DNA from: Syntrophus gentianae
GTDB lineage: Bacteria > Desulfobacterota > Syntrophia > Syntrophales > Syntrophaceae
Direction of reading: 5' to 3'
DNA length: 64,000 bases
Assembly (NCBI RefSeq): GCF_900109885.1
Contig: NZ_FOBS01000011.1
Coordinates: forward strand, 1 to 64,000
Position numbers and translations under genes: made by a program. Positions 9,485 through 10,904 of this stretch are shown piece by piece (the first letter of the stretch is position 1; each line of letters begins with the position of its first letter). The notes under the pieces were generated by a model, which saw only the letters and a program-made list of their open reading frames with translations, had not been told where the DNA came from and did not search any database.

Positions 9485-9513
9485 TTGACAAGGCGAAAGT
9501 CTGTCTGTATAGG
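9485..9513 (+). promoter_or_regulatory. Sigma-70 promoter of the panCD leader
   Basis: TTGACA at 9485-9490 and TATAGG at 9508-9513 are separated by exactly 17 bp. It lies 20 bp after the rsmA stop and points toward panC. Transcription would begin near 9520, giving an untranslated leader of about 97 nt before panC. Confidence 0.65.
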
Positions 9514-9519
9514 AATCAG

Positions 9520-9616
9520 TGCCGCTTGGATCCGGTACAGGACTGAGACGGAAGGCGCAGCCATTGGAATATATAGGGATAATAGCCTCCCCGTCTAGTA
9601 CGGTGAGGTTTTTTTT
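9520..9616 (+). ncRNA. Structured 5' leader of panC, candidate 'pan' motif RNA
   Basis: The leader between the promoter and panC can fold. CGCTT (9523-9527) pairs with AGGCG (9553-9557), and inside it TCCG (9531-9534) pairs with CGGA (9549-9552), leaving an A- and G-rich loop and a one-sided bulge. A GGG at 9576-9578 can pair with the CCC that also starts the next hairpin, which would be a switch between two folds. The leader ends in a terminator-like hairpin. From established knowledge, the 'pan' motif RNA is found before panB, panC and panD in Chloroflexi, Firmicutes and deltaproteobacteria. Position and taxon fit; I could not compare with the covariance model. Its ligand is not known to me. 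Confidence 0.5.
9586..9616 (+). terminator. Terminator-like hairpin that also covers the panC ribosome site
   Basis: CCTC (9586-9589) pairs with GAGG (9605-9608) and CCGT (9591-9594) with ACGG (9600-9603), with one C-T mismatch and a five-base loop. Eight T follow directly. The shape is that of an intrinsic terminator. The GAGG of the stem is also the best Shine-Dalgarno sequence for the ATG at 9617, so the same hairpin could stop transcription or block translation of panC. Confidence 0.65.
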
Positions 9617-10495
9617 ATGGGGAATAATCAGCCGATGAAGATCATTGCTACGGTTCCGGAGATGCAGCGTTATTCGGAGGCCCTGAGGAATTCAGGAAAA
9701 AAGATCGCCTTCGTCCCGACAATGGGATATTTTCACGACGGGCATCTCAATCTCATGCGCGAAGCAAGAAAACAGGGCGATTGCGTTGTCATCAGCATCT
9801 ACGTCAACCCCACCCAGTTCGGGCCATCGGAAGATCTTGAGAAATATCCCCGAAACTTCGAGAGAGACAGCAAATTGGCAGAAGAGGTCGGTGTTGACGT
9901 CATTTTCTTCCCCTCAAATGCCGAGATGTATCCGGATCACTATCAGACCTATGTAACCGTGGAGGAAGTGACGAAAAATCTCTGCGGCTTGTCACGACCC
10001 GTTCATTTTCGAGGCGTAGCCACGGTCTGTGCGAAACTGTTCAATATGGTCAAGCCGCATATGGCGATCTTCGGGAAAAAAGATTTCCAGCAGCTGGTCA
10101 CGATCAAGCGCATGGTGTCTGATTTGAACATGGACCTTCAGATCTTCGGCCTGCCTACGACGAGAGAAACGGATGGACTGGCGATGAGTTCGCGCAATGT
10201 TTATCTGAGTCCGGAAGAAAGGCAGTCCGCCCTGTGTCTGAGCCTTTCCCTGAAAAAAGCCAAAGAATCGTACGATCAGGGGGAACGGGACGCCGGCCGC
10301 ATACTGGAATCGATTACCAACTATATTAAAGGGATTCCTTTCACCAGAATTGATTACATAAAAATCTGCGACACGACGACCATGCAGGATGTCAGCAGCC
10401 TTGAGAAAGAATCTGTTCTGGCCCTTGCTGTTTTTGTCGGTTCTACAAGACTTATAGACAATTACGTGTTCGGTGAAGAACTGAACATCGAATAA
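9617..10495 (+). CDS. panC: Pantothenate synthetase (pantoate-beta-alanine ligase)
   Basis: Joins pantoate and beta-alanine using ATP, the last step of pantothenate synthesis. Signatures are [15 protein letters not shown], the HIGH-like nucleotide site, then [27 protein letters not shown] and the KMSKS-like MSSRN. Two starts are possible: ATG 9617, with GAGG eight bases upstream inside the leader hairpin, or ATG 9635, which begins nearer the conserved KIIATV. I prefer 9617 for its ribosome site, giving 292 residues. panD, which makes the beta-alanine, follows after 58 bp. panB is not in the window. Confidence 0.95.
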
Positions 10496-10553: not shown

Positions 10554-10904
10554 ATGCAAAGGGTGATGCTTAAATCCAAAATTCACAGAGCGACCGTAAC
10601 AGACGCGGATCTTCATTATGAGGGCAGTATTTCCATCGATGAAGCGTTAATGGAAGCTGCAGGACTTTTGCCTTATGAAAAAGTCTCCATTTATGATGTG
10701 AATAATGGTGAGCGTTTTTCCACCTACGTCATCACGGGTAAACGGGATTCAGGGGTAATCTGCCTGAATGGCGCCGCGGCGAGAAAAGTTGCCAAAGGGG
10801 ACTTGGTCATTATTGCCAGTTACGTGTATGTGGACGGCGACGAAGCAAAGGGTTGGAAGCCCGTTGCCGTGTTTGTTGACCAGGACAACCACATCAAGCA
10901 TTAG
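10554..10904 (+). CDS. panD: Aspartate 1-decarboxylase
   Basis: Makes beta-alanine from L-aspartate for pantothenate and coenzyme A. The proenzyme cleaves itself to form a pyruvoyl group. Cleavage occurs between Gly24 and Ser25, seen here as HYEGSISID. The start [16 protein letters not shown] and the NGAAAR segment are also diagnostic. The 116-residue length is close to the family norm. AGGAAGGTGA stands just upstream of the ATG. With panC it forms a two-gene unit behind the leader RNA. Confidence 0.96.

Follow-up and report, generated by a model that had tools for sequence, protein, structure and literature searches.

A single-hairpin pan motif RNA before panC in Syntrophus gentianae and its proposed antiterminator/terminator switch

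The window analysed here, a stretch of 64,000 nucleotides from Syntrophus gentianae (positions 1 to 64,000 of contig NZ_FOBS01000011.1, RefSeq assembly GCF_900109885.1), contains a pantothenate locus in which a leader lies between ksgA/rsmA and panC, followed by panD; metK also adjoins. Inspection of the sequence at 9485-9616 reveals a promoter, a hairpin and a terminator with its U8 tract, in that order, with panC and panD downstream. The features are listed below with the evidence for each; R1 denotes a single-hairpin model built from 32 single-hairpin leader sequences of relatives.

9485..9490, plus strand: -35 element TTGACA (sequence)
9508..9513, plus strand: -10 element TATAGG, 4/6 consensus match, after a 17-nt spacer (sequence)
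about 9520, plus strand: predicted transcription start (from the promoter position)
9522..9551, plus strand: single pan hairpin with bulged A9530 and A9548 (RF01749 29.2 bits; R1 51.3 bits; pair counts)
9546..9556, plus strand: putative antiterminator strand AGACGGAAGGC, the pan 3' strand plus conserved tail (duplex with 9585-9596, -16.4 kcal/mol)
9584..9610, plus strand: intrinsic terminator hairpin, whose last pairs use the start of the U-tract (fold; kept in relatives)
9585..9596, plus strand: terminator 5' arm GCCUCCCCGUCU, also the antiterminator partner (conservation in 58 relatives)
9609..9616, plus strand: U8 tract of the terminator (sequence)
9635..10495, plus strand: panC, pantoate--beta-alanine ligase; most likely start 9635, alternative in-frame ATG 9617 (TIGR00018 337.9 bits; relatives' starts)
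10554..10904, plus strand: panD, aspartate 1-decarboxylase, probably on the same transcript as panC (TIGR00223 172.6 bits)

The consensus promoter with 17-bp spacing that had been predicted is indeed read at 9485-9513 as TTGACA-17-TATAGG, with a -10 element that agrees with the consensus at only four of six positions; a consensus promoter scan, which demands a final T, missed this TATAGG. Among relatives, the best -35 match in the upstream region reaches at least 5/6 in 73 of 88 panC units, and such a match lies 20-60 nt 5' of the hairpin in 78% of them, against 21% in shuffled upstream DNA; the commonest -35/-10 spacing is 17, and the -10 element usually ends 6-10 nt 5' of the hairpin. Judged by these elements, the promoter can be assigned to the sigma-70 type. 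The terminator hairpin with eight T was likewise confirmed (hairpin 9584-9610, T8 9609-9616), and a terminator is present in 83 of the 88 panC units. Folding energy was rejected as evidence for the leader; in fact, the leader folds no better than its shuffled versions (z -0.35), so that the case for it rests on conservation and comparison.

The hairpin at 9522-9551 reads CCGCUUGG-A-UCC...GGA-CUGAG-A-CGG, and the AAGG tail that follows it at 9552-9555 is also conserved in the Rfam model. In a sensitive Rfam scan the top family is pan (RF01749), at 29.2 bits and with an E-value of 0.0064 over 4227 families; together with panC and then panD downstream, this bears out the earlier suggestion of a pan motif RNA before a pantothenate gene. 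The cmsearch check that had been recommended thus returns the expected family, but with a score below the RF01749 gathering score of 36.2 bits, and the unit is missed at that threshold. The RF01749 model has 92 positions and two different hairpins, of which only the second aligns here while the first is skipped; the score is low since the unit has a single hairpin where the Rfam model expects a tandem of two, and the cut-off is here a curation limit for the tandem form, not a biological feature. The R1 model, in a whole-genome search, scores the unit at 51.3 bits with an E-value of 5.7e-10. In eight relatives (L071, L096, L100, L105, L110, L111, L118 and L126) the R1 matches coincide with the 3' hairpin of tandem hits that pass the Rfam cut-off, which identifies the hairpin at 9522-9551 as the pan hairpin. 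A strict pattern for the first tandem hairpin retrieved almost none, being too strict for counting tandems. The covarying pairs anticipated among related leaders were found: the pan stem has 17 cells with two-sided changes (3.3 in shuffles), and the share of paired cells is 97%, against at most 51% when slid. The element has 16 invariant positions, among them both bulged A residues, A9530 and A9548, which are the same in the 32 relatives and in 58 aligned leaders. By its sequence, the unit is classified as an additional member of the known pan motif class, whose bulged A residues and gene context are already described in the pan passage of the defining paper (PMC2864571).

Matches to R1 occur in 143 of 155 genomes of the order, in 52 of its 53 genera, and, at a loose threshold, in 184 of 395 genomes sampled across the phylum; the Rfam tandem model reaches its cut-off in 2 of 60 relatives. 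All the panC loci of relatives that were fetched carry the same hairpin. In a census of hairpin units by a loose pattern, in which a few hits are chance matches inside genes, the downstream gene was panC in 88 cases, panB in 59, DUF2520 in 8 and panD in 1, with 19 units unclassified. Many pan members in this group have been overlooked as a consequence of the tandem model, and the RF01749 entry would gain from a single-hairpin model.

Other gene contexts were also observed. In three clostridial loci (L071, L118 and L126) a pan RNA lies 5' of genes for a BioY-type protein and the type III pantothenate kinase coaX, with kinase family matches for L071 and L126; the genes downstream of the pan RNA in L071 and L118 also include one for a second ECF-type transporter S component. 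This BioY-type/ECF/coaX context suggests control of uptake and of CoA synthesis. In L109, L042, L041 and L142 the pan RNA precedes genes for an aldehyde ferredoxin oxidoreductase and/or a ThiS/MoaD-like protein, after which panB comes next in L041 and L142, and panB-panC-panD in L109. In L063 and L196 it precedes genes for 6-phospho-3-hexuloisomerase and hexulose-6-phosphate synthase, which is unexpected for a pantothenate regulator. The contexts beyond panB, panC and panD, namely DUF2520, ECF transporters and pantothenate kinase, narrow the likely effector.

A second, degenerate pan unit exists in the same genome outside the window, at G000:C10:23338-23377 (L035, minus strand), where it precedes a DUF2520/Rossmann gene. 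Its match to R1 is weak (20.9 bits, E 0.11), and its terminator, which is a different one, forms nine perfect pairs with the pan tail (CGGAAGGCC:GGCCUUCCG). Of 20 loci sampled from other genomes of the order, all 20 have the second pan copy before DUF2520, and so do the remaining three genus members. Downstream of this copy, DUF2520 often has panB after it, as in L206 and L218; the order pan-DUF2520-panB recurs in L094, L098 and L149, and a clostridial locus (L085) has pan-DUF2520-panB-panC-panD. The DUF2520 family (Rv3603c, COG5495) has been linked to pantothenate operons (PMC3317503) and suggested as ketopantoate reductase (PMC4572677), and the pan element before DUF2520 adds independent support. 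No PanE above the curated cut-off was found in this genome, and no pan element was seen before its panB. Where a genome has no clear PanE, the DUF2520 protein is a candidate for the ketopantoate reductase.

The pan 3' strand and the conserved tail together carry GACGGAAGG at 9547-9555, and the strand GAGACGGAAGG is complementary to the terminator 5' arm. This predicted pairing of the pan 3' strand with the terminator 5' arm is the main regulatory feature proposed for the leader and was missed by the original prediction. In 139 of 141 units, lying before panC, panB and DUF2520 genes, the pan tail forms a stronger duplex with the terminator 5' arm than with the 3' arm, and over the 141 units the mean energy of the duplex between tail and 5' arm is -13.6 kcal/mol, against -7.3 for shuffled arms. 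The complementary terminator sequences vary, being CCUCCCGUC in many panC units and CCUUCUG, CCUUUCG or CCUUCCG elsewhere; in L021 the terminator loop holds a CGUCUC that could pair with the pan strand by complementarity. Among the 58 aligned leaders, the ten columns of the terminator 5' arm show 91% mean identity, against 71% for the 3' arm, an asymmetry that would be unexpected if selection acted on the terminator only and that counts for an antiterminator role. When own and swapped terminators were compared by permutation, the tails fitted their own better over all 141 units (p 0.0005) and in the 25 DUF2520 units, whose tails are more variable (AAGG, AATGG, AACGG, ACGGC, AAAGGGG; p 0.00055); for the panC units alone the comparison was not significant (p 0.16). 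The significance in all these tests is inflated by the relatedness of the sequences, which is not corrected for. The antiterminator pairs are conserved in the 58 panC leaders and show no covariation beyond shuffles, one side hardly varying at all, and the pair of columns 34:80 is usually an A.C mismatch.

Pairing probabilities were predicted for a nascent state, defined as the RNA ending just before the terminator 3' arm. In this state the mean antiterminator probability is 0.73 for panC, 0.68 for panB and 0.79 for DUF2520 units, against 0.22, 0.06 and 0.13, respectively, with shuffled arms; in the full-length RNA it drops to 0.03 in panC and 0.00 in panB units, where pan stem and terminator form again. 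For the unit itself, antiterminator (0.51) and pan stem (0.49) are predicted about equally before the 3' arm. With the terminator reverse-complemented, so that its arms are swapped, the predicted antiterminator probability is still 0.36-0.47, and part of the signal is therefore not specific to arm polarity. As modelled, the predicted pairings are the behaviour of a co-transcriptional switch, and the unit has the conserved, mutually exclusive sensor stem/antiterminator and terminator of a riboswitch-like terminator switch, the panC-only set being the one without covariation beyond shuffles.

We propose, with a probability of about 0.83, that a cis-acting, transcription-terminating pan RNA controls panC-panD through an antiterminator/terminator switch; the regulation through the terminator that had been envisaged is upheld, as far as sequence can show. 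Because the antiterminator draws on bases of the pan lower stem as well as of the terminator, the alternatives are the antiterminator on one side and the pan hairpin plus terminator on the other. RNA from the promoter would begin beside the single pan hairpin (9522-9551), and its 3' strand and tail (9546-9556) could pair instead with the terminator 5' arm (9585-9596). Without effector, the tail would capture the terminator arm during its transcription, the antiterminator would then branch-migrate through the three lowest pan pairs, and the polymerase would read into panC; the effector would stabilise the pan stem, the terminator would form and transcription would stop (the OFF state). The effector may be a pathway end product such as pantothenate, phosphopantothenate or CoA, or else a protein reporting it, and vitamin B5 and CoA synthesis would in this way be repressed by feedback. 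This antiterminator logic is a well-supported proposal, which was not found published in those parts of the literature reached by accession and name.

An ordinary constitutive promoter with an attenuating terminator, its likeness to pan being due to chance, would agree with the unremarkable folding z-score and with an Rfam score under the curated cut-off; it is already contradicted by the R1 match to the unit and by the spread of the hairpin through nearly every genus of the order, with pantothenate genes downstream in nearly all classified units, and we give it a negligible probability. A different mode of control follows from the position of the panC start. The original prediction described a compact unit ending at the panC ATG, in which the GAGG of the terminator stem also served as ribosome site, so that one switch could act on transcription and on translation. 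Promoter, hairpin and terminator of this unit stand, but the ATG at 9617 is doubtful as a start: the starts of relatives align with the codon at 9635 (ATGAAGATCATT), homology begins at that ATG, and the 9617 codon keeps the panC frame only in this unit and, as GTG, in L006, its equivalent in the congeners L005 and L007 running into a stop. By this comparison panC more probably starts at 9635, and the GAGG of the stem need not then be its ribosome site. A dual switch, in which terminator formation would also hide the GAGG at 9605-9608, could point to the 8 nt between this GAGG and ATG 9617, and to L124 and L157, where the start codon comes directly after the U-tract and a GGAGG lies in the stem; with the start conserved at 9635, the 9617 equivalent closed in two congeners and separate G-rich sites after the U-tract in most relatives, we hold it to be improbable. 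The GAGG of the stem is probably not the main panC ribosome site in this unit, and the idea of a single switch acting at both levels is not supported, while occlusion of the ribosome site by the terminator stem is possible in L124 and L157. An ATG or GTG stands immediately 3' of the U-tract in 30 of 77 panC units (9609-9635 here). A leader mini-ORF after the U-tract was rejected, its frames having no consistent relation to panC; the frequent 4-nt overlap of the post-U-tract frame with panC arises because panC begins with ATGA.

The proposed switch can be refined in two ways according to the nature of its effector. A protein sensing pantothenate or CoA status could bind the pan hairpin, the bound form favouring the terminator, and this comes close to an even chance: a nearly invariant helix with two bulged A residues resembles a protein site, and a protein was proposed, from the tandem arrangement, in the pan passage of PMC2864571, but most panC units have the promoter directly before one hairpin, which makes a dimeric site unnecessary. 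More tentatively, the pan hairpin could itself be a metabolite aptamer, making the leader a riboswitch for CoA, a CoA precursor or pantothenate that acts via the antiterminator. The shortness of the element with its invariant positions, the switch-like alternative pairing, the clostridial BioY-type/ECF S component/coaX contexts, which suggest sensing of a late product, and a 2022 review in which a CoA riboswitch is called notably absent (PMC9971707) are in its favour, against the facts that a lone short hairpin makes a very simple structure for a selective aptamer and that the discoverers, in the same pan passage, favoured protein binding. It seems unlikely that one pan hairpin of 36 nt suffices by itself as an aptamer for CoA or a precursor, with the GACGGAAGG tail as a class-wide antiterminator strand; if true, the riboswitch missing from the CoA pathway would be this one.

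Since 2010 the pan motif has stood as an orphan, no ligand or mechanism having been found in the portions of the literature searched. The unit and its relatives present a minimal form of about 100 nt and account for the conserved GAAGG tail, and the proposed antiterminator/terminator switch predicts the direction of regulation and names the exact bases involved.

With pan RF01749, as treated in the pan passage of its defining paper (Weinberg et al. 2010, PMC2864571), the unit shares a stem with two conserved bulged A residues, the consensus GGAUC...GGAC.GRGAC.GAAGG and the site before panC-panD, whereas the antiterminator pairing is absent from that passage. The hairpin of the unit equals the 3' hairpin of tandem members, and the difference lies in its being one hairpin instead of two, the tandem arrangement being stated for most but not all pan members, in the promoter directly before it and in the score below the gathering cut-off. 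In OFF-riboswitch terminator/antiterminator leaders, the 3' strand of a conserved stem competes with a terminator arm; the proposed switch would work in the same manner, since the stabilised stem should terminate transcription, with the difference that the sensor is here one short hairpin. The Bacillus subtilis trp and pyr leaders are protein-dependent RNA antitermination or termination leaders; their binding site differs from the putative one here, while in both cases a short RNA site, in this unit possibly bound by a regulator, overlaps the antiterminator.
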